Shown one piece after another: positions 17,016 to 64,000 of a stretch of DNA of 64,000 bases (within the stretch, counting starts at the first letter, position 1; each line of letters opens with the position of its first letter). The DNA is from Ceratodon purpureus (taxonomy: Eukaryota > Streptophyta > Bryopsida > Pseudoditrichales > Ditrichaceae): NCBI GenBank assembly GCA_014871385.1, contig CM026426.1, forward strand, positions 105,869,281 to 105,933,280. The letters are read 5' to 3'. The notes below the pieces were generated by a model that saw only the letters and a program-made list of their open reading frames with translations, was not told the origin of the DNA and searched no databases. The position numbers were made by a program, and so were the translations under genes.

Positions 17016-17025
17016 CTCTAACGAG

Positions 17026-17031
17026 TATAAA
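17026..17031 (+). promoter_or_regulatory. TATA box of the hAT transposase gene (TATAAA)
   Basis: GAGTATAAATGCC directly after the C-rich minisatellite and about 200 bp before the first ATG at 17232. Confidence 0.5.
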
Positions 17032-17231
17032 TGCCACCAACTTAGGCCAAGCCTAATTTCGTTTCAAATCATGGCCTCTAGTCCTGGAACTCCTTGTTGG
17101 CTCCTAGCTTGAGACTATGTGCATCACATTGGCCTGTGGTTGTTGTCTACACATACCATTTTGTTTTCTCACTTGTGACATACTAACACTTGCAGACAAG
17201 AGATCATTGAACTTTTTCGGAGACACGGAGA

Positions 17232-31826: not shown

Positions 31827-31836
31827 CTCGTTCCTC
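31827..31836. repeat. MULE-2 target-site duplication, left (CTCGTTCCTC)
   Basis: Ten bases directly before the terminal GGGACGTAGC; repeated at 46142-46151. Ten falls in the 8-11-bp range of Mutator-like elements (11 bp if the shared following G is counted). Confidence 0.88.
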
Positions 31837-32050
31837 GGGACGTAGCTTGTACGTGAGCGGAGAGCGCAGAGCGGAGAGCGGTGAGCGCAGATTTGGAGAG
31901 CGGTGAGCACAGAATGGGGGGCAGAACCTAAAAATAGCACTTTTTTTACTAAAAATAAAATATAAAATTAGAAGATTCGAATATTCTCAGTATATTTTTG
32001 GAAAGTTACTAATTTTAGTAATTTAATTGACCCTATAACCGTGGACTAAT
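31837..32050. repeat. Left terminal inverted repeat of MULE-2
   Basis: Outermost about 80 bp are AGCGGAGAGCG-type tandem units (31853-31912), then AT-rich sequence and CCTATAACCGTGGAC ending near 32046. Pairs with 46022-46141. Confidence 0.85.
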
Positions 32051-32782
32051 TACAGTATTTTCATTGAATTTGTAGTTCATTTTCTCTTTTCTTGGTGATT
32101 AATTTTTTTACGTGCACCAATTACTATGCTCGAGCTCCTTCTAACTAGTTCACGCATACATTAATTCCCCTTATCTCCTCACATTTATATGCAAATTACT
32201 ACTTAAAATGTATTGGTACTGAACCTCTTAAGAGGGTTCAAGTAACATTTAATTTCGTAACAATTTTTTAACATTGCTGGAATTCATCCGCCATAGTCTA
32301 CATGCCTTTCAACTTTTCTTTTTTTATTTTTTATTTTTTTATATTAACTTCCATTATTCTATCTATCTTGTTAAAGGGGTCAAAAGAGTCCTTTCCTTTA
32401 ATTCTCTTTCATTTTATTTTCTCTTTCATTTTCTCAATCGCCTTCATATTGTTTTCAACCTTAATATTTATTTTTGCTTTTGTTTACTTTTATTTTTTTA
32501 ATTTCATTTTTTATAAATGTTTTATTTTTTTATATTTTTTGCTTTTATAATTTCATTTTATTTTTTTATTTTTTAAATTTTAAATGCTAAATGACTTCTG
32601 CTCAACCCTCATCCTTTTCCATTTAGTTTAGGACGATGACAACTTTCAAATGAATGAAAAGCCGATTTTCAAGGGCGCCAAGCATCTTCTTCAACGATAT
32701 TTAAAATAGGGTTATAGAATGTCTCTTTCTCTTTTCTGTTGGTATTTTGTGAAGCTCTTTTCCGTAGTGCGGGACAGCAGTT
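32051..32782. other. T-rich 5' flank of the MULE-2 accessory gene
   Basis: Low-complexity T/A-rich sequence, especially 32270-32580. Presumably carries the accessory-gene promoter. No gene seen. Confidence 0.5.
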
Positions 32783-33235
32783 ATGGAAGACGTTAGAGAT
32801 ATTGTTGTATCACTTGCTGACGATGTTTGTCCATTTCAACCATATGTTGAGGTCGAGGACAAAGAAGAGGTGATGGCCAACAGCCAAGGGCGTCCTTTGA
32901 CAACGGATGTTGACGTACAACCGGATGTAAGAGCTGACCCTCCACGTTCAGAAAATTCGGATGATATCAGAGTGCTGGAGGAGAACGGAGATGTGCCTTT
33001 GCAAACTCATGCATACTCCAAGGTTGGAAAGATCCCAAGGGGAACCTATTCGAGGGAATCAGTGAATCGGAGGCGGGGAGGTGGGCCATTGCTGAAACGT
33101 TCATACCAAGGACACTTGCCAAGTGTTGGAACGAAAGTGAATGCAAATGTAGTTTGTCCGGTAGTACAGTCAGAGGCTGGCAGTCCTGCTCATACTATAG
33201 TGGGCAACCCTAAACGTGTTAGGTTCCAAGATTAG
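32783..33235 (+). CDS. MULE-2 accessory protein, 150 residues
   Basis: Intact ORF starting MEDVRDIVVSLADDV and ending GNPKRVRFQD at TAG 33233-33235. Acidic first half, then HAYSKVGKIPRGTYS, a basic patch with RRRGGGPLLKR, and NVVCPVVQ. Homologous to the frame at 6976-6524 in MULE-1, with the same convergent orientation toward the transposase and about 250 bp between the two stop codons. The arrangement resembles mudrA/mudrB of MuDR, but I see no sequence similarity to MURB that I could name. Conservation in two diverged elements implies a past function. It is the one intact gene of MULE-2. Confidence 0.72.
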   Translation: MEDVRDIVVSLADDVCPFQPYVEVEDKEEVMANSQGRPLTTDVDVQPDVRADPPRSENSDDIRVLEENGDVPLQTHAYSKVGKIPRGTYSRESVNRRRGGGPLLKRSYQGHLPSVGTKVNANVVCPVVQSEAGSPAHTIVGNPKRVRFQD

Positions 33236-33488
33236 GACATCTAAAAACAAGTATATGTTTGGTGTAATAAAGGGTACATGTCAGGGGATACGAGGTATAT
33301 AGTGCACTTGTTCAAAATAGAATGTATTGAAATAGAATGCAATCAATGTGTACGACACAGCCTTTAATATAATGAAAAGTCAATACAGCTTCTGAATAGC
33401 TGACTTAGTACATGGTATATTACTAAAATCATTCACTACGTGACAAATGGCCATTGTGGAAATGGCAGTTCTGAAGTAGGAGGGCTAC

Positions 33489-36400
33489 CTACTTCTTTGC
33501 CAAACGGTGACGCAAGATTCCACTCTCTAAAAGAAGCTTGACCTCGTTGAAGCTAAGGTAGGCGCAGGAATGAAAAGCTCGGCTTCGAGATCACGGTTGC
33601 AGACCTTCAAGAGTATGTAGTAAAGGTGCTTACAATACCTGAACTGAGTCCTGCCTCGGAACGTAGTCATCGTCTTCTGGAATGCAGGACAAGTGCAACC
33701 AGGGTAAGAACTAATGGTAATCTGGTACCGTGTGATGTGTGCAGCGACGCCCGAATCCAGCCCAATGATGCAACCGTGGCCTGGCACAGATATCATGGTG
33801 ACGGAACAGAGGCGCGCTTTTAGTGACTCGGAGGAGCCCATGGAGAGTCGCTGCGCTTGATTGGGACGAGTGGCAGTGCGCTTCACCATCTTGCCGTCTC
33901 TCTTGCTTGGGTAGCGGTCAGCGTCTGCAGGGACTGGCACCGAGCTCAGATTTGCAGGGGGCGGGGCAGAGGAGAAGAAGCGTCTTGAGGAGACCGGCTT
34001 CTTCGGCGGAAGTTGAAAGCCTGCTGCTTCGAGGGCTAGAATCTCAGTCAGTTGTAGGTTAGTACCTAGTTTCACTGGCCAGACCTCTGGAATGGAGGGG
34101 AATTCCTCGTCCTTTGAAGAGTGTGCTACCCACTTGCGCTTAGAGCCTTTCACGCAGCGCTCAATATCGTCGGAGCAGAAGAAGAACTCTGTCTTCTCGA
34201 CCATGTTCCTGCGATAGTTAGTCCAGAGCCCAGTGTAGGTCGGTGCAGCTGTGCAATGGGGCCCCCTGACGATTCTCTCAGTGCACTTCTTCATCGTTTC
34301 AGCTCTTTGGGCCCAGCAGCACTTTGCAGAAAGTTTGTGAAGTCTCGAGATGTGCCACTCCTTTACGTCGACCTTGGTTTCTTCAACCGCGTTGACATGG
34401 CGAATGCCGCCCTTGTTCACAGGTGAAGGTAAAGGTGAATCAACTTCCTGGGCAGGAGATTGGGTACCTTCTACCTCGGGGTCGTGTTTGGAGTCGTCTT
34501 CCACAATGACGGGCATCTGCATAGGGCGAGCTCTAAAGGCACCTCTTGGGCCTCTAGGGCGTGAGAAGTTTGTCTTGTCCGGCTGATGAGACTCCTCGTC
34601 AACTCCGATGGGGACGTCGGCTTTTCGCTTCTGTGAACCGAAGACTTCCGCTCCAGGCGTGATAGGCTGACGGGTGCAGAACTCATCCGCGCCTGGCATA
34701 TCGAGCATGGGCTTATCGAGCAGTGTAGGATTTCCCCATTTGCGTTCCGCCATTCGGAGCCTGAGTTCCTTCTTGGACGGTCCAGTTCCGCCGACGTCAC
34801 CTTTGAGGAACTGGTAGTAGTTAACAACCTGTAGAAAAGCCCGAACGAAATCGTCCATAGTAGCAACATAGAGGTCGTTCCCGTTGTTTCCAGAAGCTTG
34901 GAGCCACTTGTTGTGAACTGTTTTGGCGAGGTTACAGGTGGGCATCTCTGTAAGTTCTTCTTTCGTGAATTTCTGCAGATTTGACAGTAGGTGCCGTTAG
35001 ATTCACGGATTAGAGTTTTGTAGGTTAGGGCTAGGAAATCAGTATCAAAAACATCAAAACATAGTGCAGAGATCATACCTCGGTCATGAATCCCCCCACT
35101 GCCGGAAGCGGTGGTGCCAGAATGACAGCCACTGATCGAGTTTGATGAGTCCGCTTTCGCCAACGACCCCGGTGGATGCCCATCAGGCTCGCAACGCGTG
35201 GTACAGAGTTTCCGCCTCTGCCATGCTGGTCGCATTCTTGTACTGAATGCACATCTTCTTGTGCTGTTCTTAGAGTTCTTCGGGGAAGTGCTTCTGCGTA
35301 TACGCCACCATGTTCTGAGTCCAGTGGAACAAGCACGACCTCTCCCGGTCCTCCATTGGGTCTTCTTTGTTGCCATTGCCGTAAAGGATTCGCACTGCAT
35401 TCTAATTCGCCTGTGCGTTATCTGCCATGAACCCCTTGAAGTTCGGCGCTGCAACGCCATTGATCTCCATGACCAGGTTCAGGTTTTTCCAGAAGACGAG
35501 CTGGGCCTCCGTGTCCTCGGACTGCATGTCGCAAGTGGCGATTGTCATCACGCGGCAGTAGGTGGCGTCGTACACATGGCACGCCATCGTCGACGAGTCT
35601 TTGACGTGTTTGACATGGTCGAACATGATCCATGCGTTCTCCAAGTCGCCACCAGCTTGCATATGGCTGACCAAGTCGACACCACTTCCCGGCCCGACCT
35701 CCGACATCTTGAAGACAAAGACTTTGTCACGCATAGCTCCTTGACCAGGAAACCTATTCTCTTGGACATACGCCCAGAGACTGTTACCACGGAGCTTGGT
35801 GATACCGTCCATGATTCCGTACCTTTTGAATTTTTTGAAGGTGGCGACTTTGTTTCGGATGTTTGGTGACGCCATGTCTTTGCAACGATCCAAAACAGGA
35901 ACCAGCTCCTCCATCGTCAGCTTCCTCGGCGCTGCATCCTCGGGCTGTAGCAGGTAGCTCCCGATGAGGAGTTTGCTCGCCTCTAAGACAACGGCGCTCT
36001 TTGTTGCTTTGTTATTCATCTCTACCTGCTTTTCTAGTAAGCTACTAATCTCTGCTTTAGAGTCTCTGTAGTCTCCAACTTTCATTGGATGATCATGTGT
36101 TCCTATGTGAATACAAGTTCTAGTCTGATTTGCTTTGCCCACAACGTAATAAATCTTAGCCTCGCATGTAGCCACACATGCTGGAGGTTCTTTACATACC
36201 TTGCACACTAGCGTGGAGTCAGATGGAGGAGGCTGATCAATGAGAAAAGCTTGCAGGGTACACTCTTCGAACTCAGTCTCGTTAACCTCGAAGATCTTGG
36301 GAACACGCTTCAGGAAGTCACACTCCTGGTTGCTGCAGCGCAGCCATCCGACGCAGTTGGAACTTCGAAAAGAGAGTCCGAAGTCGTTTTTGATGTTTGT

Positions 36401-37237
36401 TGTGATGGTCTTGGTCCACAAGTGTCTGTCGTGTCGTTTGTCCATTCCCTGCATTGACTTGGCGGCGAGCTTAGAGGAACCTGCAGCAGCTGGGGGCAAC
36501 TCAAAAATAACCGGACCATCAAACTTCGCAGGCAAGTACTCTACTCTCTCGTGTCTAATAGTGGAATAGTCTATCTTCTTCAGAATGTTTTTTGACCCAC
36601 GCTCCTTTGCAAGCTGTTGAAGGAGAGGAACAATGCTAACTCTGACCTGGGACAATGGAGGAGAGACATTGGAAGGAGGAGCATCAACGTGGACCTTCGG
36701 GACCAACTTGACGGGACTGACATGGTCATCAGAGGAGAGAGAAATGACTGTCGGAGGAAGAGGTTTCTCTACATCTGAAGTCTCAGTACCAGGCTCAACT
36801 TTGACCTTGACATCACGAGGTAAAGGAGTCTGAATTGTGCAAGTAGAAGAGCGACGGGGGGTAAGGATCTCAGTGGATGCAGCCATCAGAGAATCAGTAA
36901 GACCATAGACTCTATAGGATCCAGGGAGGAGTCTCCACTGCAACATATTGTTTTCATCTGTCACTGAAGGTTGCCCGAGGGTGTGGGTAACCTCGGCAGT
37001 AACGTCATCAAAGATCTCCTCCTCTATACTGATGGAATCCTCACGGAAATGGAATTTGAGACTAAGGCGAAGAGAGGAAACTGTAGCTAGACTATCGTCA
37101 TCTATGCGAAACCTAAGAGGGATGCCCATGCCTTGGGCGTACAGACAGACCATCCCCATGATCGCAGGCAACTCAGTGATACTAGTGGAAGAAGGGAGAA
37201 GAGCGAGTTTACTAGCCAAGCTGTATCGCGAGAGCAA
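33489..37237 (-). pseudogene. MULE-2 transposase (Mutator-like, DDE and SWIM), few lesions
   Basis: About 1,210 codons from 37237. First exon 37237 to about 35087; an intron with GTATGA donor and TCTGCAG acceptor; second exon about 34974 to 33489. A Cys/His finger-like region (CSNQEC, CKVC, then CIHIGTHDHP) lies near residues 300-390. ACHVYDATYC (Asp at about 35569) and GFMADNAQAN (Asp at about 35422) are the first two catalytic positions. A C-terminal SWIM finger, CTCP then CKHL, is at about 33697-33627. Lesions are TAG 35404-35402, TAA 35272-35270, TGA 35185-35183 and a one-base deletion near 33558. All three stops stand where MULE-1 has, or would have, Trp. The rest reads cleanly, so inactivation is recent. 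It starts 562 bp from the divergent methyltransferase gene. Confidence 0.88.
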
Positions 37238-37799
37238 AGTGAGAGGAATGATGCGTCGCTGTTGATCATTTTATTCAGGTTGGAATGTCCATGCGGACGT
37301 CTAGGTAATGATTCATTCTGTTACGTAACGAATGTATGATTTCAGAGAGACGGCGCGAACTAATTAGAATGCCAGTTCCTGCTTGTCTAAGAATTTTTGG
37401 GCAAATTTTTATAACTCTACTTTAATAGTTTGAATCGTGGAGCAGATTCTATTTGTTATTATGTATTAAAAGATTAGGGTTAGTCGTCTTTTGAATTCTA
37501 CATTTAAAGCAATAAATATAAACAAGTGCATACATGAAAGTGCTTGATTCAAATCTTATTAATTTATAGTGTGCTTGGATTTATTCTTTATATTTAAAGG
37601 TTGAACTTTTCTAATTTTACTTCACAATGGAATTGTTATTCATACTCTTAAAATAAAGTAGGTACAGTATATGACACTAGTTAAGATGCTATATCTACTG
37701 AGGGTTGTATCAAAATAGTTGCAGCTGAAACGTATTTAAGCTGGTAGGAAGTTGTGCAGAGAGTCTTTTTGTGAGAGAGTTCTTGTTGAGGTTAGACAC
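37238..37799. promoter_or_regulatory. Divergent promoter region, transposase and methyltransferase of MULE-2
   Basis: AT-rich 562-bp interval between the two starts. TATTTAAGCTGG at about 37733 is a TATA-like box 60 bp before ATG 37800. Shared control of the two genes is likely from position, not shown. Confidence 0.45.
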
Positions 37800-38240
37800 A
37801 TGAAGCAGAGTGGAGGGCCATCTCCCTCCACTTATGTCACTCCTAAACCTAGAAGAAAACCAGGTCGTACAGATTTTACGGATAGAAGAGCGAGGAAGAG
37901 GAGAGAGTCACGTAAGAAGGTAGTATTTAAGACTGACCATTTGAGTGCACCTGTGAAAAGGAGAGGAGCTGGTCTGCCTGTAGCTTTGAAGTTCTGTAGC
38001 ATTCGTAAACTCATCGTAGACAGTATAGTTGAGGTGAAGGAAGAGATCTTGGAAGACAGTGGAGCTGCAAATCAGGAGCACGAGATACCATATAGTGAGG
38101 TACAACTTGAGGAGCAGATGGAAGACCTTGAATTTAATTGTAGTCAAAGAGTAGAATCCCTGCAGCCGTCTTTTGGGAAGAAGGATTCACGCTCAAGGGA
38201 TATGCATTCAAAATCAGACGAAGATTGTCTCTCTGAACTG

Positions 38241-40019
38241 GTAAGTGTACGTCACTGTCTTAGCAAATTTTATTTTATGGTTGGGCAACAACTCCATGTT
38301 ATGTTAAGCAAGTTATTTTCAAAAAAATCTGAACTATATTAAACAGTGATAAAAGCTCAACACTTGAACCAGCTAATGAACGTAGATGGATATTATAGTG
38401 TACAATAGTGTACGTTGACTGAAAGTAGTCGAGTGCTTCGAAATTTCTGTATGACACCCGTGTCATATCCAGTGAAGAGCATGTACATTATGGTGCTTTG
38501 AAATATGGTTTCAAGTAATCGAGGATAGCGAGCATATTAAAGGCATCAAAAATTTAAGTGAAGCCTGTACAGGGTGTGGGCCGTGACCACCTACTTGGCA
38601 GCCGGTAATTACGATGGGATGATTAACTGAATATCTAGCTTCGAAAGTAAAAGTCAATGGAGGTCACTAGATTCAGTTTGGCCCGGCCCGGCCTGGATAG
38701 ATCTGATGTGATTTTTGAATAGAATGCTTGGCCATTGTCGACTTCACTCTTTTTGCTATCAGAGGTTTCGAGTAGAGGGAGAGGAGGGTGAGGAATTGCG
38801 GGTTTGCGCAAGGAAGGTTCGAGCAGCGATCATGGAGGCTGCAAGCGACTCAGCTGGGGAAGCGAGGCGTGACGACGGGCGGGTGCAGGATCTTGGTGTT
38901 GCAGAAGGAGCAGGAGGATTGAATGGGTTTGAAGAAGCCGACGAAGGCGAGGAAGTTGGAGGAGGTGGGCAGGATGTCGGAGAAGAGATTCAGGTCGGTC
39001 GGGAGACGAGGATGGAGATTCCGACGACGACGACGAGGTACTTGAAATGTTGGGGTGCGGGATGTTTGTGTGTTGGGTTTGTTGCAGATTGCGTGTGGGG
39101 TTCTCGAATGTTAAAGTTGGCGGATTGTGGGTGTTGCGGATTCTTGCGCTGCTGCTGATTAGATGGATTGCATTGCTTGTAATGAGCTGTGAGTGTTGGT
39201 CAATCTGGGCTGGTTTGTTCTCGATAGCTCGCGGCTTGGGACTGTCCATCCGGGAGTTGCGGAGGCTTCGACTTCGGGCGGAGTTCGTGTCTCGTTCGGA
39301 CTGCTGCTGCTGCGAATTAAATATGGTCTTGTGCCGATTCGCAGATGGCCGCATCGTGTCTCTCGAGCTAGTAATGAACTTTGCGTGGACTTCTCGGCTC
39401 GTAGATTTGTATGGTTGTTTTGAAATGCTTGGGTTTGCTTAAGGTGTTAGTTCGGGTTTCCTTCTAGTCTGCTGCTCTGTTTGACTTTGCTTGGAACGGA
39501 AGTCCTTCTGGTGCTTGGGGTGCTCGGCTTGGGGCTACTTCATTTTTAAAATACTTTTTTTTTTTTAATTTTATCATTTTCTTAAGCTTTCTAATGATAT
39601 TTAATTCTAGTTTTTTTTTTAAATAGTATCCGTCACCCTACTGTCTGTGACGACAGTAGGGGAGCGGGATTTCAACTCTTGTTCATGTTGGTGATATTTG
39701 CTCTCCTTCTGGTGCTTGGGCTGCTCGGCTTGGGGCTACTTCATTTCAGCTTGTAGAGAGTATTCGGTTCGATTCCCCCCCGCTGGAGGTCCTGCTAGAA
39801 AGCTGTACCAATGATGGCCCCAATTTTTTAAACGTCTTCCTTACTATGCGTTAAATTTTTGGAGTGTCCTTGTTATTTTACTTGAGCTTCTGATATTCTT
39901 TCTTCAACATTAGTGGTGTTCGTTTGTTTTGAAGAGAGGTTTGATGGCTGCTTTGTCACATTTATTTGTCTTTTGCATTGATTCATTATTCAATATCAAT
40001 TTCTTTGTGTATGAATTAG
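38241..40019. other. Long first intron of the MULE-2 methyltransferase gene, with possible alternative exon
   Basis: Between a GTAAGT donor and the acceptor at 40019. An ATG at 38832 opens a Glu/Gly-rich frame to a GAG/GTACTT donor at 39037, a possible alternative first exon. A 45-bp direct repeat (TCCTTCTGGTGCTTGGG type) lies at 39503 and 39704. Between the copies is a hairpin, CCTACTGTC paired with GACAGTAGG, at 39637-39660. Confidence 0.45.
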
Positions 40020-40336
40020 GAGTCTTCTGAGGATAATATGGGGAGCCAACGTGAAGTCCCAACTCCAGCTGAGACCGAGGTACATAACTAATTCTTCTTA
40101 CTTGTCTTTTTTCTTAATTTATTGCTTACAACTCTTTTCAAATGTGGAAAATAACCCTCTCTTCATTTCTTCTACTCTAGGTATATTCAGATGCTCCTGA
40201 GATGTCCGCGACCTCCCCCATTTCAGTTATCAATGTTTCCGACCTCTCGGATTCATTTGATCAGCCTTATTGTAGCTGTGATGTAGCCAACCCTTTAGTT
40301 GGAGATAGTGGACCTTTCGAGGTCCACTCTCCACAG

Positions 40337-40441
40337 TACATGCCTACTTCTCCCGTGTACATGCCTACTTCTCCCGTGTACATGCCTACCTCCCCAGTGT
40401 ATGAGCCTACGTCCCCGGCCTACATGCCCACTTCCCCTCAT
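40337..40441 (+). repeat. Five RNA polymerase II CTD-like heptads (YxPTSPx)
   Basis: Five consecutive 21-bp units encoding YMPTSPV three times, then YEPTSPA and YMPTSPH, in frame inside exon 3 of the methyltransferase gene. The Pol II consensus is YSPTSPS. Here position 2 is Met or Glu and position 7 is not Ser, while Tyr1, Thr4, Ser5 and both Pro are kept. Confidence 0.9.
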
Positions 40442-43400
40442 GAGGGCTCACCGCCTATGTCTCCACCCTCTCCTTCCTCGCCTATCAGAGTGAGAAGGCC
40501 TGCCCATGTGGTGTTTGCTCTACCGGCAATTCTGCCGTGCCCGGTTCAGCAAACCAGGCGGTTTTGGAGGAGGCGCCGTCACTGGAACTGTAGACAGTCT
40601 AAGGAGTACTATAGTCGAGCATCACGTAGATAGTTCCCCCAAGCGCAGATGAATTCTGACTTGTTACAAAAGAGATGACAGTATGAAGATATATTGTTAC
40701 TTTCTTTTACATACTTGTCTTCTTTGCATGACTTCCTTTGATTGTGATTCCTCTCTTAATTCCCACACCTCTTGGCAGGTTACTCAAACACAAGATGTGT
40801 TGGCAAAACCATCTTGCCCGATTGACTTGAAGACTGCTATGGAAGGGGAATTGCAGCATCAAATTCAATACAAGGTGGACTCCAACGCCGTCATCAACAA
40901 CCTTAGGATCAAACCGTCGGACAAGTCTCGAATGCTGGTGCCCTTATGTAGGATGATTCCAATGGCCAAGGTAAGACCAGTGGGTGAAATGGGGGTAGAA
41001 CACTTGGAGCGGGAGTTTGTTAAGGGATATAGAGATGGGGACCGCGTCATGTACATCTCCATGTACAACACTGAAGAGGAAACGAAGAATGTGACGGCGG
41101 AGATTATGGCCACTTGGAGCCCTTTATGGAGGGCAGCGAGTGATCGTTTTGATGATGAGATCTCTGGGGACGAGGAGTTGATGCAGTTCTCGCACAAGAT
41201 GTTTTTTGTCTGGGAGGGTAATCATCGCCTCTCCGCTTGGCTCCGGCATATCAACAAGCATCATGCGGACGACCCATCCTGGCACATCTCTGTGCATTGC
41301 ATTGTACTTGACCCCCGCGGCCATGTGGGCAATCTCTTGCACGCCATGCACGACATCAACTGGTACGTTTAAAAGTTTTGACTATTTGTTATCCATATTG
41401 AAGTCTTTTTCTATTATATTTCATTCTACTTACTTACTACTTTGATATTCAGGTCGACTAAGAATGACCACGTGAAGAGTAATCTTCCAGCAAAATTGTT
41501 TCGAATCCGCTCATTTGGAATGATGAAGCTGGAGGAGTTTAAAGACCTCCTGAGCCCTGACAAATTTGAGGCTTGTTTGAAGAACAGGCCACCAAACCCG
41601 TCATGGTTCCCCTTGACAACTCCTGTTTTCATCGCATTTCTCTACCGAGTAAGTTGTACCTCCTCTCTGTCTTTCCTCGTTTTGTCTCCCCTCATTCTTT
41701 GCAAGTTTTATTTTGTTCATTTATGAATTTTCTAAGAATTGGTTATCCTTCTACAGCGGGAAATTGCTGTGGCCTCGGATGAAGCAGCTAAAGCCTACAT
41801 AAAGAAGACACCGGCGGATGAACAGAGTGCATCTGCGGTTTGGGATGTCATGAATGACGCGACTGAGAAAATGGTGGACCTCATTAAGAGGAAGGACTTC
41901 ACTAAGTACTTGGCAATCGCAAATCCTAGAAACGGAGAGGACTTCCTGAATGAGGTAACACCGTCATCTAATTTCAATTAGTATTTTGATTTGTTACAAC
42001 ATTATGCAATTATATTTTCTAATACTTCTCTACTCCTGGCAGATCGATCGACATTACAGTCTAAACTCTAAACCTGAGATGTCCCTCGATAAGCTCCAGA
42101 AGATCTGTCCAGCGGCCGTTGAGCCCAAATACAAGGCTCGGTGGCTGAGGTGGTGGAACTCATCTCCGAGTTCCCGACTATCTTATAGATTTCCACCGCC
42201 CGAATTCAAGGATACTCAATTCGACCCTTGGTTGAACAGGGCTTCATTCTAGGCTGGGGTATGGTTTCGAAATATGCCTTACCAATTACAACATGCTTTC
42301 TGATTTCTTTTCTCATTGGTACTAATTCGAATTCTGTATTACAGTTGGAGGAAGCCGTCATCAACGAGGTCGAGGACATATTCAAGGCAGAGAACCTTGA
42401 TATCGATTGGACGGCATTTCCTGATGTCCAACAGCCGGGCGATTATGTCGAGAGTTCACGTATTATGTTGTGGGACAAGGCCTTCCCTACGTTTATTGGA
42501 AAGAAGGCTGAGAAGCCCTTCGACAAGAAGTCCAATTTCTCTAAATTCCGTGGAACCGCTGAAGTTGTCAAGCGGGTTATTTATCGGCATGTTGCCTAAC
42601 TTTTTTGCATTTGCATATTCTAATTCGTTAGAGCTTTCTATGCTACTAACCTTCTAAATTTCTTCCCTTAGGTACTTCAAGCGAGAGCTTGTTTTGAAGG
42701 GGGCCATCACGGTCCAGCAGCTCCCCAACTACTTCCGTGCTTGGACGCAGACAACCTCGGACCAGTGTATCTATTCTCCCAAGCAGCTGCAAAGGTACAA
42801 AGCTCCTCACTTGCTTGAAGGATGCTGGTACCTTGATTGCTCTCATGGTTTCACGATTGACTCAGAGGTCGACGTCAAGACTCTACACGATGGGGGTGCG
42901 GTGGTGGTCGAAGACACAGAGGATGGTGCAGAGGATTTTGGAGGACAGCAAGATCAATCCTCTGCTCCTCCAACGAAGAAAGGGAGAGGAAGGCGACTGA
43001 AATCTCTCCGTTCTCAGTCAGAGGCATCACAGCAAACCAGTGCGGCGTCTTCCCAGCCAAAACAGAAGGAACCCGAGCCCTCTCCAGGTATTGTCGTTAC
43101 GAAGCCTTCTCCAGCTTCTTCGCCGGCTCCTTCCACGATCAGTGCTTCCGAGGTCACCAGAGGTCTCCTCGAGCAGCGGGAAACCAAGAAATTTCCACAG
43201 ACTACCTCTTCCGCTGGAACTCTCAATTCCTCTCAGGTTTATGTCATCAACTCCTCTGTGGGCTCGGTTCTATCCTAACACAAGGAACTTGAAGACGTTG
43301 GTGGCGATCCCGAATGGAACAAGGCTCTAGACATCATTCGAATGGTATGATTTGTTGTTTCATTCTTTCCCTTTAATTCTTATATTCTGTTAACCTTATA

Positions 43401-44766
43401 TTTTCTAACTCTGATTTCTTGTTTACTCAAGTTTGGGGCAGGCCGCGAGAACCGAGTTCCTGATAGATGCAATGAGGAGAATCACTTGGGATTCGACTTG
43501 ATCATTGTCGATGTTCCTGAGAACCTTCCGGTCCCCACGATATCCAATCCCACCTACGTCCCTCCGTCTTGGAACAAACGCGGCAAGGATTATTTGGAGG
43601 ACCTCTTCGAATTCGCAAGACATTATTTGCAGTTTGATGGTGCTATCTGCATCATCCACAACAACGACCAACGTCTGGCTACAAAGATTTCCGAAGTGGC
43701 TGCTGCTGATGGCTTCGTGTAGCACCAAGACTGGTGGGGCTTCAATGCACTAGGCTTGGCTCACCCAACGCTGCCCGGCTCCTTGGTATGTACTTCATAA
43801 TCTTCGCTTGTCTTTGCATTCTACTAAGTTTTCTTTTTAATTACACTCACATATTTTTGTTTCTCGCAGTCTCTTCGATTCTGGGTGCGCGTCTTCATTC
43901 GTGGTGGTTCTCCCCCATCCAAGTTTTCTTTTCAAACAAAGAAATCCGATGTCGTTTACAACGACCTCCACATTACCGAGAGTGATGCCATTCTCAACTT
44001 CACCGATGCAGACTCGCAGCTCATGAATGGGGAGGTGCCGTCGAGAGGCCCGAGGGAGAAAGCCCCTGAGATGATGCAGGCCATCATTGAGGAGATGACC
44101 AAGCTCGGTGGCATAGTCTTCGAGTGGTCGGCAGGAACATGTAATCCTCCATTAACAGTTTCTGCATTTCCAATCTTCTGATTTTCTCCACAGGGACTCA
44201 CTACTTTTCTGTGCTACGTGTTTTCAGGTGCCTCCCTCAAGGCTTGCCAGAGTATTGGTCGTCATATTATAGCTTGTGAGGAGGACAAAGCCATATTCAA
44301 CGCCCTTCTCAAACCGTATATGGCTACGTCATCTGCCATGGGCCGTCCTAAACATCCTAGGCCGGCAGCAGCAGAGGAAGCGCCTACAAAGAGATCAAGA
44401 AGACCTGATAAGTGGTGTAAGTCTTCTATTTTTTGTTCAAATTCTCCAAGCATTGCTTCTCTTTGCACCTCTACGTATTCAATCTAACCACAATCGGTTT
44501 TCTATTGCAGAGTAGTTTCGGCAACACCGCCACGTGGGCCAACATCAGTGTCCACTCCATCGTGGCGTCTTCATTCCAGCCCGATTCAGCCTTTTATACT
44601 TTCGGACTATGCAGAGGACTTAGCACAGGCGTTTCAATCTGGAGCCCTCACATATGTTCCTAGTCGGCCAACTACTTTTGATCCCAGAGCCCTTCTATTC
44701 GTGGATGAAGAGGCTGTAGAAGGAGATTCAGAGTCATCTAGTTCTGAGAGTGGAAGTAGCGACTGA

Positions 44767-46021
44767 AGCATGTTCTGAGTTAGAAGGAGGCTTCGGTCTT
44801 TCATTGTTTTCATTTGAATTGATTTGATTCAATTGGAGTTCATTGCATAATCCTTCGTCTACTCTACTCCAAACACCCTAAAGTAGTTATGATTCTCATT
44901 TCCAAATCCTCTCCGTGTTTGTAAAGGATGAAATGTCACAACTGTAATGCTCAGAATATAATATGAAGAATGAAATGTTACAAAAGAAATGCTCAAAATT
45001 TAAATTGCGCTTTAATTTATATTTTAATCATTCAAAATCCCACATTTCCATAGCCATGTTACATATCCTTGACTTGGTGTACATCTTGGTTTCTGCTACT
45101 CCATTACTGTTCGATAGCAAGGGATACGGGATTAGGGACAACTCCATAATACGGAGAAGCTCATTGGTACAAAGCATTGTCCAACGCCATTCACCTTCAC
45201 CAACATGGAGGCTTCCGATGTGCCTAAACGGTGGCTGGTCCATGCCTCGTTCCCTCGCGCGCTCCACCTCCAGCAGCCAGGGCCGCAGCTCCTCATAACT
45301 CGCCGGTGCCTTTGGGGGCAAACCTACAGCCGCTCTCGTCCTCCTCGATTTCGCATTACACACCTTCGGCATCGCGCAACACACTGAATTGTTGTAGTCT
45401 TAAAACATTCCACGCAAGCTTGCAGATTGACCCCCCCGAACTCCTACGCTACCTTCGCATACAGCACAAAATGCCAAGGACTGAGTCACTATCCTAATAC
45501 GCCACCTAGAAATAAGCTCAAGAAACCAAGAGTGACCTCCTTCTCTGGAACCCAGCTTACCAAGTGTTGTTTCATGATGAAGATCTCCTACTTGTATCAC
45601 TCAAATGAAGATGCTTCGCTGCCTAGGAAGAGAGAGTAATCTTCGATGAAGACAAAGACTCTAACAAGGTATATCTTGGTTTCAGCAGTTAAGATATTAT
45701 ACACGAATTTTGAAATATTCCAGGAAGTTTTCAAACCTTGCCTCCTTTATGTTCTGTGAAATTTGTTTTTTTCCTTGTGCATTTACATAATCCTATGAAA
45801 GAATTATTTGTTTGATCTTAAACTTAACGGCTGATCATTGTATCTTGCCTAAATCCATGACAACTCTTACAAAATATATGCATGACGTCATCATGACATC
45901 AGCCCTAATTTGTATCTTAGAGAACAAACGTAATAAACTCTTACCATAGATAACCCTGATCTCCACGGTAATATACTCTTTTCCTAAAAAAAGTGTCAAA
46001 ATCAAGCCTTAATTTAGTAAT
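44767..46021. other. 3' flank of the methyltransferase gene inside MULE-2
   Basis: Probable 3' untranslated region and spacer before the right terminus. Apart from the minus-strand frame at 45028-45384 no coding sequence is supported. Confidence 0.45.
45028..45384 (-). CDS. Possible small gene or exon of MULE-2, unknown
   Basis: 118-codon minus-strand frame, convergent with the methyltransferase gene, with balanced composition (SYEELRPWLLEVERARERG, HVGEGEWRWTMLCTNELL). A GTGTGT-type donor or CAG acceptor near its start could join it to upstream exons. No homologue is visible in MULE-3, so it may be chance or a captured fragment. Confidence 0.3.
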   Translation of the reverse strand: MCCAMPKVCNAKSRRTRAAVGLPPKAPASYEELRPWLLEVERARERGMDQPPFRHIGSLHVGEGEWRWTMLCTNELLRIMELSLIPYPLLSNSNGVAETKMYTKSRICNMAMEMWDFE

Positions 46022-46141
46022 TTTCCACGGTTATAGGGTTTACTTTGCTTTTGAAAATTTTGCTAATTGTCAATTCTGTGCTCTCCATTCTGTGCTCTCC
46101 GCTCTCCGCTCTACGCTCTCCGCTCACATACGAACTTTCCC
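46022..46141. repeat. Right terminal inverted repeat of MULE-2
   Basis: TTCCACGGTTATAGGG at 46023, AT-rich middle, then ATTCTGTGCTCTCC and CGCTCTCCGCTC-type tandem units to CGCTCACATACGAAC and the terminal TTTCCC at 46141. Inverted match to 31837-32050. Confidence 0.85.
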
Positions 46142-46151
46142 CTCGTTCCTC
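46142..46151. repeat. MULE-2 target-site duplication, right (CTCGTTCCTC)
   Basis: Identical to 31827-31836 and directly outside the terminus. Confidence 0.88.
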
Positions 46152-48468
46152 GAACCGCATTAACCATCGCTGTTGGCGCTGGAAGTCGGCATGATGACTG
46201 ATGAGGGCGGCTTCAAGGTCTCGGTTCTTGGTTGTAACATAGTCTCGCATGGCGCGACTAAGGTCTCAAGGGGAAGATGTCCGGGTGGCAAGCTCTAGAG
46301 ATAGGCGCTGATTCTCCAAGAGCAATCGGTCGGCTTGTTGCAAGCGGTTGCTGAGGGTCTGCTCCAACTCCAGACGGCGGAGGGATGGGTCGGGTCGGCT
46401 CACTGGAGCGGTGGCGACTGCCAACTGGTCCTGCAGGGTGGTGACAGCCAACTGAAGTTCCACCTTGTCCTTGACAAGCTGATCCCGTGCGATGGCGGTA
46501 GACTGTAATGTGGTTGCTAGTAAGGCAACCTGAGCGCTTAAGTCCCTGACCGTGGTGTTGAGGGCCTCGGCGGAGGAGGCTCTCTGCTGGGGATTGGTCT
46601 CCAGCTGTCTAGCTGCAGCCTTGGTCCTTACAAGGACAGTGGCTAAAGCCTGAAGGTTATTCATCAATACGCCAAAGTCAAATGACGGGTCAAGGAAACC
46701 CTGGGAAGATGTTCCGTTGGAACCGTCTGGTGGTCCTCCTGAAGAACCGTTGGGGTGAAGTCGCGTGGTTTGGTGGATGACTGGTGTGGCAGCGTTGCTG
46801 GCGCCGTGGGGGTTGCTGACAGGTGTGATGGTCGCTCGGCCCGTGTGGTGCTGCCGCCTTGAAGCGGTATGGGCAGGTGTGGTGGTTGGGGGATCGGCTG
46901 CGGCAGTTGATGGTGGAGCCAAGTCGGCTGCAGTAGCCGTGTCTTTTGGGCGAATGGTTGTGGACGCGAGTATCGCTCGAAAAATGGGAAGTGGCTCATG
47001 CCCGGGGAGAATGGCCCAACCTGAGGAGAGTGGACCAACTTTGGCTGCTAAGGGAGAATCCGCTCTGGGGGAGGTGCTCTGGCGAGGTGGTGATGCAGCA
47101 GCCCGAGTTGGCACGAAGGTTGGATCACCAAGGGGGTCGAGTGCAGGTTCAGGCACGGTGATGCAGGGTTGACAAGGGGGGAATGGACCCTCAGTCGGCT
47201 CGTCATCAGGGGGCAAAATCTGATCCTGTCCAGACACTGTGGCAGAAGATTCGCCAGACAGACTGCAAAGACGAAGAATGGGTACAGTGGGTCTTGTACC
47301 TAGGAATTCCAGGTCTGAGGGTGGAGTCGGCTGACCCTGAAGTTGTGGGCGGGACCGTAGGGTATACCGGCAACTGGGCGAGGCTGTCACTAGTTGTTGT
47401 AGGGGGTAGACGACTGGCTGGTGTTGCTTCCCCGGTTAAGTCTGGTTGACGCACCCTATTGCCATTCTTCACCAGCCGGCGACGACGTCGGCCGACATCA
47501 GACGATCCTTCTTGAGAGTTCGTGGTCGGCTGTGTCTCGGTGGTTGGGACAGATGCATTCACTGGACCAGGAAACCTATCTCCGCTAGCTCGGTCTCGAA
47601 GCTTTGAGCCAGCCAAAGACTGAGGGGGTGGGTTAGTGGCGGGTGAGCCCTCGTGGCTGCCATCCATGGTGTCGACGCTAGAAGATATATGGGTCGGGCC
47701 GACAACCTCTTCACGGTCAGGAAACCAGTATGACAACACTGCATCCATGACGGGGGCACCTCGAAGTCGGCGCTTTCCTGGAGCCTCCGAATGGATGTAA
47801 ATAAGGTGACGACGGAGGTTGGCGAGTACATAGTGTGACCAATCAAACCTCTCGTTGCGCTCACTAGCCTCCTCAGCAGCGAAAATATGCTCCAATAGGT
47901 TGTTGGTGACAAACAGCAACCGCTGCTTGAAACCAATAGCATCCCCTAAGGCCTGTGCGCGGGACTGATACGCAGGGGTAAGGGCAGAGGTACGATTACC
48001 ATCGTGAATGTGTTTATCTTCAATTAGCCCATACTTCGCGAATTTGGGATGGAAGCCATCAATCCTGCGCTTGTCCACTAAGTCGGCACCAGAGTCGAAA
48101 CCAAGAGCCTCCCGGATGACAATAGCCGTGATCTCGTCTGGTTTCCCCCAAACCATGGAGCGGATTGTATCCCTGCTGTCGGCTGAGGAGCGGCGGGAAC
48201 CCTTAGTTGGTGGAGAGTACTCGAACCCCTCGATGAAATCCAAGATAAGCTCGTGGTGGAACTCAGGCCAACGAAAGTGATAGAATACGTCTAGGCTGGT
48301 CAGCCTAGCCCAATCATCGTCCTGCATCTCTGTCCAAAGTCCGAGTGTGTGTAAGGTTCGAAAACAACCTCCCAGCGACGGTGGGTATTGCGGGGTACAC
48401 AAACCTGTTTGGGAAGCCGACCATCCACAGGGATGTGTATGTGCTTGATACCCCTCCTCTGAGTACAA
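46152..48468 (-). pseudogene. Gypsy 3' coding region after integrase, frameshifted
   Basis: Minus-strand coding sequence downstream of the integrase tail. The frame to 47206 contains a globular block [20 protein letters not shown] through LLEHIFAAEEASER, resembling the putative plant-transposon (gag-like) domains found in plant retroelements. The next frame (47390 to 46266) is Pro/Ser/Thr-rich and ends in a clear coiled coil (ALLATTLQSTAIARDQLVKD, LEQTLSNRLQQADRLL). A TGA at 46268-46266 is followed in frame by MRDYVTTKNRDLEAAL, running into the MULE-2 insertion and finishing at 31774. At least one frameshift separates the pieces. I cannot assign a function; an extra ORF in this place is seen in several plant gypsy lineages. 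Confidence 0.55.
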
Positions 48469-51400
48469 AGGGTCGGCAGTGACTCGCAGGGTGGAGGAAG
48501 TATAGTCGCTGAAAGAACTGGACGAGCATCAGCATGATCCAGCTGTGGGGCTCGGTTGACCGCCTCGACGGGCGGTGTGGGCAGCTGGCTGCTAGGGCCC
48601 GCCTCATCCATCGATTCCTGCCCGTTGAGGGTCTGCAATACTCCCTTCAAAAAGTAGCGCTCCAAGGTGCCGATCTGTCCTCTGCGACGTCGATGACCAC
48701 GCTTAGCAGGTCGGCTGTGATGCTCCGGGCCTTGTCTGCGCTCGAAAAAAGGTGAAGAGCTGAAGACCTGGGAGCAGTGGGCAGGAAATTCGCCACAGTC
48801 GGAGTCGCTGCTAGTACTGGAAAGCTGCGGTGGATCGTCTCCGTGAGCTTGAAAGTTGGTGGGACAGAATTGGCCTGAGAAAACCCGACCTAACTGTGGC
48901 TCTACAACTGTTGCGGGAAGACCTGCTTGTATGGAACTAGGGTTGCAAAGATAGTGACAGAAAGAGGGTGAAGAAGAGACTGGGGGGAGATTGAGCTGGG
49001 ATGAAGGAAGGTCCCTAAGAAGAGAATCAATGGGCTCAACCTTAACCCGACAAGCTAGCTGAGGTGCCTGACGCGAAACGGGAAAAACAGCAGCAGAAAT
49101 TGGGGACAAGAGTGACTGTCGAGACTGAACTTCAAGACAGCAAGGAGGGTGAATAAGGTGAGTGCGATCGAAGGATCGCTGACCTGAACCGCTGGTTGGA
49201 GGGAGGTGACTGGAAGGCGCGTCAATGTGGGAAAAATCCCGCCGAGCGTATGCTGCTGGGACTCCCGGATCAGCCCTAGAAATCGCCTCCAATGTGCAGG
49301 GTGGTGAGTGCGAGGATGCTCCGCCCGATGCTGAGTAACCGTGAATCCGCAAAGGAATGCCACCGACAGTGCGCTCCTTGCTAGTTGGGTGACCACGAAC
49401 GGGCCGGCTGGAGATCGGTTGGAGAGGATCGCGGGAAGAAATGTGTGCTGAGAAACAGCGTGAGCAGGGCGATGGGTGCGGAGTCGGTGAAGGGAAGCGC
49501 GGCCTGTGAAACCCTAAGTCGTCACTAGAGTGAGCTGTCTCGGGCTGGAGGCTAAAAACTTGTTCAATGACTGTATCCCTGGGTCGGACGGGGGCGGCAA
49601 TTTGCAAGGCGTCCTCTATACTCAGCGTATGTCTGCGAGGACGGAGAAGGGGCTCGGTTGGAGCTGCGTCCAGAGTGAAAGAGAGAGGTTTCTGGGGTAT
49701 GGGGGTTGGATTTTGGCCTGACCCTAACCCTAAAACAAACGAGGTAGCTTCAGCCCGAGTGCTAAATGGCAGACTGCTAGGGCTCTCGAGGGAGCGATGA
49801 GATTGGAGTGGGGGGCAGGTCTCGCAGGAGGTGCTGGCTGGGAGTAGGGGGGCCGTCAAGGGCGTAGAGTCAATAAAGCAACACGCCACATCAAAAATTA
49901 AATTTGCCAAAGTGGCTGAAGCAGTGGGTGAAGACTGAGTGTTGATGGGGGGAAGTTGCTGACTAAAATCTTGAGGGTCCGTCGTCAAGTGAGTTGGGTC
50001 CGCCATGGTTGAAGTAGACGAACTCCGGATGAGAGAATAAGGAAGGGAGCTACCAGAGCTCGGCTCGGCTCTTAAATGCACTGCTTGCTCGGGTGTCCCA
50101 TCAGCTTGGTCTTCAGGTATTTCCGTGGACAGTCCTCGTGGCAGCTGCTTAGGGCTAATAGTGACCAATTGATCCGCAGAGTAAAAACGGTATGGTTTTA
50201 GCTTATTAATGTTGACGATGATGGGGTCCGGCTCAAAATGGGCCTTTGTTACCAACAGGGCAGTGTTGTTACGTAACCTGTAGTGAACTCGATATGGGCC
50301 AAACCAGCGGCACTTAAATTTTCTTGTATGCTCCTTCTCCCCCTTGGGATACCAAAGAACATGATCACCCACTTGGAAGTCTTTCTGTCTGTGATGTTGC
50401 TGACTCCACAAGGCTCTGTCCCTCTGTCTGCTACCTGCCTCTTCCTGCGCAATAAGTCTGTGGCTGTCTAACTGTTCCAAGTCGGCTGTGCGCGCCTGCA
50501 GCACTCGGGTAAGAGTATAATCGATGCTGCCATTTGTCCTACGGGTAGGGACAGTGTACTCTGTAGGCATCAATGGATGGAGTCCGTAGACTAACTGGAA
50601 GGGTGTATACCCAGTAGAAACCTTATAAACAGTCCTGTAAGACAATAGGGCTGTGGATAAATGTTCATCCCAGTCCGTTCTGTTGTCACTAACCAATTTC
50701 GTCAACAGCCGACCTAACACCTTGTTGGTTGACTCGGCCTGTCCGTTCCCTTGGAGATAATAGGTAGTAGAGGTGCGATGTTGTAGTAGAAAATATTGCA
50801 CCAGGTACTCGATAGCCTCGTTGGTAAAATGAGTTCCTTGATCACTGATTAAAGTCAGCGGACAGCCATAACGAGTCAGGATCTGTTCGTACAGGAACTT
50901 GGCAGTCACTGCTGCAGTATTGGTGCGCAGAGCCTTTGCTTCCACCCATTTGGTGGCATAGTCGGTTGCTACCAAAATGTACTTGTTGCCGGTTCGAGCT
51001 GCTGCTGGCTTGATAGGGCCTACAAAGTCTAGACCCCACTTCATGAAAGGCTCCGCAAGTAGGCTAGTGACCAACTGAGCCAGACCACTGTTAGCTAATC
51101 CGCCGACCCGCTGGCTCTTATCACATGCCCTGTAGTATTCAGACACATCCTTGTGCATTGTCGGCCACCAATACCCCACATCTAGGATCTTCCGGGATGT
51201 GATGTCTTGTGAAAAATGCCCCCCTGCACAGCCGTCATGCATGTCCCTCATCACTGTCTCAGCCTGTACAGGGTCGAGAACTCTGCGTAGCACCAAGTCT
51301 TGGCCCTTCTTGTACAACACACCCTGAATCAGAGTATATGGTAGTGACCATAGGGTTAATCTCCGCTTCTCATCCTTGGTCATCGTTACAATGGGTTCAC

Positions 51401-60648: not shown

Positions 60649-62363
60649 GTTACTGAAGGGAGAGCCCTGCATTTGAAGGGAGAACAAGTGAGTCACCCGT
60701 TTGTCGACCTCATCATTGCTGACTTACCAGAGAACCTCCCTATCCCAGGTGTCTCAGACCCTCCTAGATCCATCCCCGCTTGGAATGAGGGAGCTTCTGA
60801 TTGGTTGCAGAGCATTTTTGACTTCGCTGAGAATCACCTCCACGATGACGAGGCGATGATACTTTTTCATCCTTTTCGTGCAACAACGAAATCTGAAATT
60901 CTAGGTTACTGTGACGTGTATGGAATGAAAGTCCGCAAGGAATGGTGGGCAATGAACCGACTCCACCTGACATCACCCTTGGATCAGTCCGTTACTGTAA
61001 GTTCTAGCTAAACATTACGCCCCTTATTTTGTTTCGTAGTCACCCCCGTTTTGCAAATTTTCTCTCCAGATAACCATTGAGAATCAGCTTAAACTTATTC
61101 TCGTAGCCAAGGACCACGAGCCTGTCTGGATAACTTAGTGATACTAGCAGTCTCCTTTCAGTACCAAGTGGTCACGGCCTGGGCGGACAGCCATGGAGAA
61201 AGAGCCATTGAAAGAAGCGTTTTCAGAATTAAACTCCTCATCTCTTGAGCAGTCACTCATCATTGCTCGGGCCCTATGAGAGTTCGAAATCCCTCCATCT
61301 GAATGCAATCACAGAGTCCTGATGAATTATTACTAACTTAGTGTTTCAAATTGGGATGCAGACACTCCGGTTCGGGATCACCCTGGCAGTGAAGAGTGGA
61401 GTTCCTGCATCAAAGTTTGCTTTCAGGCCTGTGCCCAAGCTGCTTAGCCGCCACGGTGTAGACGTGGGCCGTGATGACTGCCTACAGAACATTGTTCTGC
61501 CCGAGAACCAGATGTGTGATGGTCAGAGGCCATGGAGAGGCCCCCGGGAGAAATCGGTGGTACTCATGGAAATGTTGATTGAAGCTGCATCAGATCCGTG
61601 CAACGTCATATTAGACTGTACGGCAGCAACCGGTCAGTTTCCTGTACCTAAAAAATCTTTGTACTCTATGTTGCAGTACCTCTCCTATTTGTCCACGAAC
61701 ACTTATACCACTATATAAATTCATTGGGTTGTGTTTCAGGCTCATCAATCCATGCCTGCCGCAACATTGACCGCCACATTGTGGCCTTGGAGGCCGATGC
61801 AGCCATTTTCAAGGCTTTGTTGGAACCATTAATTCGGAATACTTCGGTCCCTGAAGGCAGCACCGCACAGCATGTCATCTCTGAGGATCCTGAGGGAGAA
61901 GTTCCTGTCATGAAGATCATGAAGAGATCTCGATTCAAGAAGTGAGTTTAGACTCTTTTTCTCTAGTGTTACCTCTCATATACACGCATTCAATGTAAGG
62001 TGGATTTATAAACAACTTGCCATTTACATTTGCAGATGCAATAACATGAGGTCTCCCGTGCATCGTCCTTTTTTTTCTGATCCTAATTTCCACCCGAGCC
62101 CTCCACAGTCTTGGAATCTTCCATGTTATGCAAACGATGCAGCTATCCAACTAGCTCGTGGTTCGTACCGTTACTTTAGATCCAAAACTGCACCAAGTAG
62201 ATCGTTGGAGTTTCTTGATATTAAAGCCGATGAGTCAGACGACCATCTCTCAGATATGAGCCCCTCCTCAATCACTCTATCGTCCTCTGATCAGTCCGAC
62301 CTTGAAGAAGAGCGCCGTCTAGAACGCTCTGTCAATACTTTGAAGGACATTTTGGAAATGTGA

Positions 62364-62889
62364 GTTGGGGCAGTTAGCGAGTTGATAGAGAACTCGCATG
62401 TACTGAAGGGCCTAGCCAAAGCTCTGTATATGAATTCCCTTAATTTGCAGTTGCATAATATATTTTTTGTTCTTTCTCCATTCCAGCCATTATCTGCATA
62501 TATCCCTTCCACTCCAATTGTCCATTTTCATTCTCACCCCCCCCCCAAATTTTTTATTTTTACCGTTCCCTTTTTTATTTTTTGTTTATTCCTTCTTCTC
62601 GGATCTTTCTTCTTCATTAACATCCCATTTTTTTGTTGCTTCAATTTTCATTCCTTTTTTAATATCTCATTTATCCTCTCTACTCGCACCTTCGTTTTTC
62701 ATTAACATCATTTTTATTTTTCTTTTTCCATTCCGTCCAATAATTTCACTAATCCCTTCCACTCCAACTATCCACTCTCATTCCTATCCCCGTTATTAGT
62801 TTTTTCTTTCCTTTTCTTGCATTTCCATTTTGTTATTTTGTATATACCTTCCATTCGCACTTTTCCTTTTCTTAGACATATGCTTTATT
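62364..62889. other. 3' flank of the MULE-3 methyltransferase gene, T-rich
   Basis: T/C-rich low-complexity sequence, with degenerate versions of the satellite unit (CCACTCCAACTATCCACTCT near 62757). Long open frames here are composition artefacts. Confidence 0.6.
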
Positions 62890-63860: not shown

Positions 63861-64000
63861 TATTTTTCATTTATTCCCTTGTCATTCAAACATGAAATGC
63901 ATAATTGCATTCATAAGCTCATCATGTGAGCAAACATTATGCCCATAGTGGCCATCCACAGGACTCTGCTCGGCCCCGACCACTCTTGAATTGCATTGTT

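Follow-up and report, generated by a model that had tools for sequence, protein, structure and literature searches.

Why should a moss transposon carry a large second gene whose predicted product joins a ParB-like segment to a DNA methyltransferase domain with permuted motifs, and what could such a protein do for the element? The question is raised by a 64,000-nucleotide stretch of the Ceratodon purpureus genome (the window; positions 105,869,281-105,933,280 of contig C6), in which a preliminary description, made from the sequence alone, had placed such a gene between positions 37800 and 44766. Comparison of this copy with its relatives in the same genome (362.5 Mb in 151 contigs) shows that the exons in this interval form the accessory gene carried by a Mutator-type transposon of high copy number. 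That the locus is a Mutator-type element carrying a domain of the methyltransferase family is very nearly certain. What the protein does is a far more tentative matter; we propose below that it counters silencing of the element by acting on an array of palindromes inside its own gene.

The transposon spans positions 31837-46142 of the window; four other copies are about 16.8-18.0 kb long. Its borders are set by comparison of copies, by terminal inverted repeats (TIRs) at 31837-31892 (plus strand) and 46089-46142 (minus strand), and by identical target-site duplications (TSDs) of the sequence TCGTTCCTC at 31828-31836 and 46143-46151. Within the TIRs, the segments 31844-31891 and 46089-46136 pair over 48 bp with 88% complementarity in the window. 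Perfect 9-bp TSDs flank all six copies for which both ends were read (window, c6a, c3, c8, c9 and c1a), and the 3' element end is common to all ten other copies. Mutator-type elements make target-site duplications of 9-11 bp. The element carries two divergent genes, a transposase gene on the minus strand and the accessory gene on the plus strand. The transposase gene consists of two open reading frames (ORFs), 724 and 505 amino acids long in copy c3. In the window copy the first (35405-37270, minus strand; Mutator-like by motif reading) is shorter, at 622 amino acids, and the second (33530-34996, minus strand) contains a weak SWIM-like zinc finger with a Pfam expectation value (E) of 0.093, under the cut-off. 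Pfam detected no MULE domain in the transposase ORFs of the window or of c3, and no SWIM domain in c3. Because Pfam does not recognise the transposase, the Mutator label is based on the TSDs and TIRs, together with motifs recognised by eye. With these features in place, the earlier view that a Mutator-like element in a eukaryote carries the gene is upheld.

The accessory gene runs from an ATG at 37800 to a stop codon ending at 44766, precisely the interval first described. Copy c1a (28.24 Mb on contig C1) has 14 exons, GT-AG introns and an intact frame of 1447 amino acids. Exons 1-3 were checked in c1a and, in part, in the window and c3 only, while the model for exons 4-14 fits all 17 copies examined. 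Every internal splice site is GT-AG in 15 of the 17, the exceptions being one site each in the window copy and L034, and the exon 4-14 frame is uninterrupted in 11 of the 17 (it is broken in c6a, c1b, the window, L031, L033 and L034). The window copy is dead, since it has premature stops in exon 8 (TAG), exon 10 (TAA) and exon 11 (TAG) and has lost the splice donor after exon 9, where GC replaces GT. The single multi-exon frame of the preliminary description is thus correct as to its motifs, which lie where they were placed, and its exon phases, which fit, but not as an open frame in this copy. The family as a whole is large: exon 5 has at least 150 genomic matches (150 scored of 1893 candidates) at 81-100% identity, and 131 of these 150 contain no stop within the match.

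In the window, exon 1 (beginning MKQSGG) occupies 37800-38240 and ends at a GTAAGT donor; its counterpart in c1a is intact. Exon 2 (38763-38993) is acidic, open and in phase 0, and although diverged from exon 2 of c1a it is similar by eye. An alternative first exon beginning at 38832 was rejected because its phase does not fit and it has no match in five listed copies; that site lies in exon 2. Exon 3 (40020-40079) is followed by exon 4 (40181-40489), which encodes about five YxPTSPx heptads (40329-40432) resembling the C-terminal domain of RNA polymerase II; there is one heptad fewer in c6a, L030, L031 and L033, and copy c7 is 21 nucleotides longer overall. The ParB-like motif EGNHRL (from 41214) lies in exon 5 (40779-41362), which is supported by its genomic matches and by 86 database homologues. 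Exons 6 (41453-41648), 7 (41757-41954), 8 (42043-42258) and 9 (42345-42586) lead to exon 10 (42672-43344), a linker. The methyltransferase motifs begin in exon 11 (43432-43785) with motif IV, DVPENLPVP (DVPE from 43510), and continue in exon 12 (43870-44140) with motif X, RGPREK (from 44044), and the start of motif I, WSAGT (from 44125); Pfam recognises N6_N4_Mtase in the c1a counterpart. Exon 13 (44228-44416) holds the remainder of motif I and an acidic ACEED motif, and exon 14 (44513-44766) the acidic tail and the stop.

Do all these exons belong to one protein? Several relatives carry as a single frame what is split in the window: exons 5 and 6 in L053, exons 9-12 (567 amino acids) in L052, and the linker with exons 11 and 12 in L035 and P0010. 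These fusions support a single predicted polypeptide; for the links between exons 6 and 7, 7 and 8, and 8 and 9, as for the gene ends, the evidence is splice phase.

The methyltransferase half, judged by its sequence relationships, surely belongs to the beta-class N6_N4 amino-methyltransferase fold family. The exon 11-13 piece of copy c1a matches Pfam N6_N4_Mtase (PF01555) at 29.3 bits, above the curated cut-off of 26.7, and phmmer searches of PDB sequences find DpnA (E 1e-4) and CcrM (E 0.0099). A profile built from 26 relatives can be aligned with CcrM across the span of motifs IV to I (E 0.0049), and its hhalign comparison with three phage and two bacterial enzymes gives a probability (Prob) of 92.8 and a pairwise E of 4.1e-7; scanned singly, six of the 26 match N6_N4_Mtase (best E 8.9e-5). 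Alignments to CcrM, DpnA and the phage enzymes bear out the motif order IV-X-I that had been read from the sequence. A profile search with 8000 candidates scored returned 42 matches at E <= 0.1, of which 40 are close relatives (E <= 1.3e-6) and the remaining two carry the Pfam label N6_N4_Mtase (E 0.07). The side of the domain that would hold S-adenosylmethionine (SAM) looks kept, with motif X reading WRG[PAT]REK in 23 of the 40 close relatives and the glycine-rich motif I retained. The catalytic side, in contrast, is changed at the sequence level in the family with DxPE at motif IV: hhalign pairs IADLPENL with VTDPPYNV, such that the first proline is replaced and the aromatic residue becomes glutamate. 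Because D-x-P-E replaces DPPY, enzymatic methylation by the window's family is not to be assumed. The original assignment to the beta-class amino-methyltransferases is right about the domain family; by its sequence the window's family counts as a member by descent and is not filed as an active enzyme.

The N-terminal half was originally described as having a ParB/sulfiredoxin-like context. Exon 5 contains the motif [DE]G-x-[HQ]-R after a predicted strand, and the order of strands and helices, read by eye, suits a ParB core. EGNHR or DGNHR occurs in 74 of the 86 database homologues; five of the others differ at the last motif residue, four differ elsewhere in the motif and three fall short of it. 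Profile matches are all below threshold: PHROG_1033 ("ParB-like partition protein") in eight of 56 family members (best E 0.0027), with the match spanning the motif in two of ten rescanned proteins (E 0.074 and 0.25), and Pfam DndB once at E 0.02, lost on a trimmed query. NCBIfam gave nothing relevant for the 56 members, and searches of PDB with exon 5 gave nothing significant. Exon 5 is thus ParB-like by motif, with a ParB fold that is at most putative. Some homologues of exon 5 (P0066, P0070, P0086 and others) lie on contigs of public assemblies up to 727 kb long, and longer relatives accordingly exist.

What might the N-terminal half recognise? Intron 2 of other copies holds a tandem array whose unit length is about 200-211 bp, except in c6a and L030, where it is 128 bp. 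Between about 5 and 45 units were read per array, and array lengths vary widely between copies, the counts being minima for the several arrays that end at the borders of the stretches fetched. Each unit typically carries a palindrome: across 13 arrays there are 0.74-1.3 palindromes per unit, while shuffled sequences average 0-0.4 per array. Palindromes and units number 18 and 18.4 in c1a, 38 and 44.6 in c6b, 35 and 44.2 in c2, 10 and 10.8 in L030, and 4 and 5.4 in c6a. In some arrays the palindrome outlasts the rest of the unit. When the unit consensus of c1a is compared with that of L029 or L032, a 24-bp palindrome (E 3e-5) is all that they have in common apart from A/T runs of 9 bp; it takes the forms CCTACTGTCGTCA-CA-GACAGTAGG and CCTACTGTCGTCA-AC-GACAGTAGG; L029 and L032 have a longer stretch of 66 bp around it in common. 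In c6a the palindrome has changed on both of its arms (GCCCACTGTCG-NNNN-CGACAGTGGGC), and the units of L032 vary symmetrically in the outermost pair. The window copy retains a remnant of two partial units of about 200 bp (39503-39753, with a direct repeat at 39503/39704) and a single palindrome, CCCTACTGTC-tgtgac-GACAGTAGGG, at 39636-39661, whose core is conserved between otherwise unalignable arrays. One palindrome loop is inverted (tgtgac or tgcgac for gtcaca) in each of the arrays of c4, c7, c8, c3, c9, c1b and the window. Rfam detected no RNA family in L060-L062 or in the window.

The accessory gene family is under purifying selection. The ratio of non-synonymous to synonymous substitution rates (dN/dS) between types is 0.10-0.12 for exon 5 and 0.37-0.43 for the methyltransferase. 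By synonymous divergence (dS), methyltransferases fall into two types, M1 and M2 (0.04-0.11 within, 0.57-0.65 between), and N-terminal halves into four (exon 5: 0.16-0.24 within, 0.64-1.04 between). In an analysis of seven copies, of which c6a, L031 and L033 are broken, N-type A occurs with M1 (c1a) and with M2 (c6a), and N-type B with M1 (L032) and with M2 (L029). Because all four combinations occur, the sequences indicate that methyltransferase modules have been passed among elements whose N-terminal halves are old and distinct. The idea that array type tracks methyltransferase type received no support in the five arrays compared; array type instead follows the N-terminal half, which is what linkage by itself would predict.

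The same exon order is found in at least two further families of this genome. Family 2 (L054 followed by L052) matches exons 5-14 and has the motif DVPED. Family 3 (L053 followed by L049, L055 followed by L048, and also L051 and L050) has the near-canonical motif DQP[FY]. Its members match one another in exons 5, 6, 7, 8, 10, 11, 12, 13 and 14, with exon 9 not detected in that comparison; L048 scores 33.4 bits against N6_N4_Mtase. A genome search with family 3 yielded at least 150 matches (150 scored of 772 candidates). A scan of short stretches for tandem repeats revealed no long array in either family. On sequence grounds the DQP[FY] family is the better candidate for enzymatic methylation, and its domain may truly methylate DNA, yielding N6-methyladenine (6mA) or N4-methylcytosine (4mC).

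The search for relatives beyond the moss bears on whether the element acquired a ParB-methyltransferase fusion from a phage or bacterium. No relative was found among IMG/VR viral contigs for five queries or among phages for one query, and GTDB contigs yielded a single relative, the intron-split L035, with no clear prokaryotic one. A protein search with residues 386-1359 retrieved nothing among 7997 scored candidates, and a Pfam scan of all 1447 residues gave nothing besides N6_N4_Mtase at E < 0.1 (the weak match to DUF6568 had E 0.11). Since nothing clearly related to the fusion turned up among prokaryotes or viruses in the collections searched, such an acquisition finds no backing. L035 (CADCWO010000058.1) is a family-2-like gene whose contig, 4.7 kb long, was assigned to the bin of a soil-crust cyanobacterium of the Synechococcales; it is probably eukaryotic contamination of that bin.

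How might these parts work together? In the mechanism that we propose, the N-terminal half (the ParB-like exon and exons 6-9) would bind the element's own palindrome array, the methyltransferase-fold domain would act there as a SAM-dependent or SAM-sensing effector, and the element would be kept accessible against host silencing by cytosine methylation. The model is the VANDAL elements of Arabidopsis, whose VANC proteins, according to PMC10398659, bind noncoding tandem repeats of their own elements and strip silencing from them, the repeats expanding, contracting and diverging quickly. VANDALs resemble the moss transposon in being Mutator-type, in carrying an accessory gene that is not a transposase and in having fast-evolving noncoding tandem repeats (PMC10398659 and PMC13317346). 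They differ in being described as non-TIR elements, whereas the moss element has TIRs; in the latter, moreover, the array sits within an accessory-gene intron and the gene product has a methyltransferase-family domain. We favour anti-silencing because an accessory protein paired with a fast-changing array that keeps a conserved core matches the logic of VANC and VANDAL. The palindrome array inside the gene also lends indirect support to the earlier suggestion that the protein marks or protects the element or counters silencing. Considered by itself, self-targeted anti-silencing through the array is a tentative proposal, somewhat more apt to be wrong than right; the whole account, identity and mechanism jointly, comes closer to an even balance, still tilting towards doubt.

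A number of observations pull the other way. At the N-terminus, Pfam ParBc matches none of the 56 exon-5 family members, so that the ParB-like context first described stands as a motif but not as a profile match. When aligned by hhalign with ten ParB-like domains of phages and archaeal viruses, exon 5 reaches a Prob of at most 0.4, no better than with an unrelated methyltransferase profile; repeats with the insert removed, and with 92 and 89 sequences, gave nothing significant. Pfam, used here without direct comparison to a VANC sequence, found no VANC-like domain in the 1447 residues. The full-length protein scores 26.0 bits against N6_N4_Mtase, just below the 26.7 cut-off. Motif IV is D[VI]PE in the genomic copies of the window's family, not the canonical (D/S/N)PP(Y/F/W), and in the 31 of 40 close relatives that cover it the last residue is always glutamate (24 DIPE, two DLPE, two DVPE and one each of DILE, DCPE and NIPE). 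Among the five array types compared, L030 has different palindromes, with only T runs in common with the others. The palindromes might serve as hairpins in the intron or have arisen as the arrays grew, and the association of array type with the N-terminal half may be plain linkage, as the two adjoin. If the array is unrelated to the protein, it would represent satellite-like growth in a permissive intron, with hairpins favouring expansion. The widely differing array lengths and the other palindromes of L030 suit this explanation, but it is difficult to see why the 24-bp palindrome should then have persisted while the remainder of the unit was replaced, or why the changes in c6a and L032 should be symmetric; we regard it as unlikely, though with a substantial chance of being right. 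Perhaps, instead, the domain is an active amino-methyltransferase that places 6mA or 4mC on the element, the palindromes being one candidate site, and so hides it from the host or signals to it. The permuted beta-class domain has kept motif X and the glycine-rich motif I, its sister family has kept DQP[FY] (with 33.4 bits for L048), and N4CMT of bdelloid rotifers deposits 4mC on transposons and certain tandem repeats (PMC8885841). The invariant glutamate in place of the catalytic aromatic residue argues against such activity, as does the report, also in PMC8885841, that changing SPPY to APPA abolishes N4CMT activity. This possibility is rather unlikely, and the DxPE domain of the window's family is more likely, from its sequence, to be a changed or non-catalytic version.

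Could the protein instead serve transposition itself? A ParB-like organiser that assembled on the array or the element ends might bridge an element of 14-18 kb or longer, and a palindrome array within the element is reminiscent of plasmid partition sites, whose repeats bear palindromes. The stretch read extends into transposase-side sequence in eight of ten copies, the array having filled it in c2 and c6b. Given that profiles do not confirm the relation of exon 5 to ParB, and that the palindrome was not seen in the TIR sequences read, we consider this role improbable. That the accessory gene is a functionless passenger captured by chance is very improbable indeed. Plant transposons, Mutator-type elements included, do capture pieces of host genes (PMC13317346), but the low dN/dS largely refutes such a reading here; against it, too, frames are uninterrupted in 11 of 17 copies, and the same architecture recurs in more diverged families and in the outside contig.

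Transposon accessory genes and eukaryotic amino-methyltransferases are both already known. Bdelloid N4CMT likewise has a permuted PF01555 domain in a eukaryote and is linked to transposons and tandem repeats, but, according to PMC8885841, it belongs to the host and combines SPPY with a chromodomain, while the moss gene lies on a transposon, has DxPE and gives no chromodomain hit. MpDN4MT1 of Marchantia, likened here by its description in PMC8566409, is another bryophyte DNA amino-methyltransferase but a host enzyme of sperm. The phage proteins L040, L041 and L046 also have a ParB-like N-terminus followed by a methyltransferase, as does the archaeal virus protein L044 according to its depositor's note; the three phage proteins, however, have canonical DPPY and are compact (about 390-410 amino acids; L044 has 526), and the phage ParB domains show no profile similarity to exon 5. 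Fungal KDZ elements carry TET/JBP genes. These too place a DNA-modification enzyme family on a eukaryotic DNA transposon, though both the enzyme family and the transposon superfamily are different. No description of an element like the present one was found in the open-access literature, most subscription journals lying outside the search, and within that search VANC was the sole plant-transposon anti-silencing system found described. If the proposed mechanism is true, self-targeted epigenetic control was invented independently in a moss, at very high copy number and on an apparent sex chromosome among other places. It would also show how amino-methyltransferase domains of bacterial type spread and change in eukaryotic genomes, and the series from DQP[FY] to DxPE is a natural one for asking how a catalytic site gets rebuilt. 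In its boldest form, a plant Mutator-type superfamily would encode its own sequence-specific chromatin system, in which a large protein with a swappable methyltransferase-fold effector reads palindrome arrays located inside the gene that encodes it and either sets marks on the element or removes them; the DxPE branch would then represent a new chemistry or a SAM-dependent reader derived from a DNA amino-methyltransferase. We think this doubtful.

As to its setting, the window probably lies on a sex chromosome, because contig C6 is 110.5 Mb long and, according to a review, the U and V chromosomes of C. purpureus exceed 100 Mb each, about 30% of the 360-Mb genome (PMC8000587). The flanks of copy c9 (L025/L026) read, by eye, as the transposase ORF of another family copy, which suggests a nested insertion, and in copy c1b (L028; joined coordinates 16451-18900) a second, inverted partial copy directly adjoins the first. 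Just outside the element in the window, minus-strand ORFs of 389 and 440 amino acids at 46266-48528 may belong to a retroelement. The end of the window (62001-64000) has a strong strand skew, with a GC skew of -0.487 and an AT skew of -0.411.

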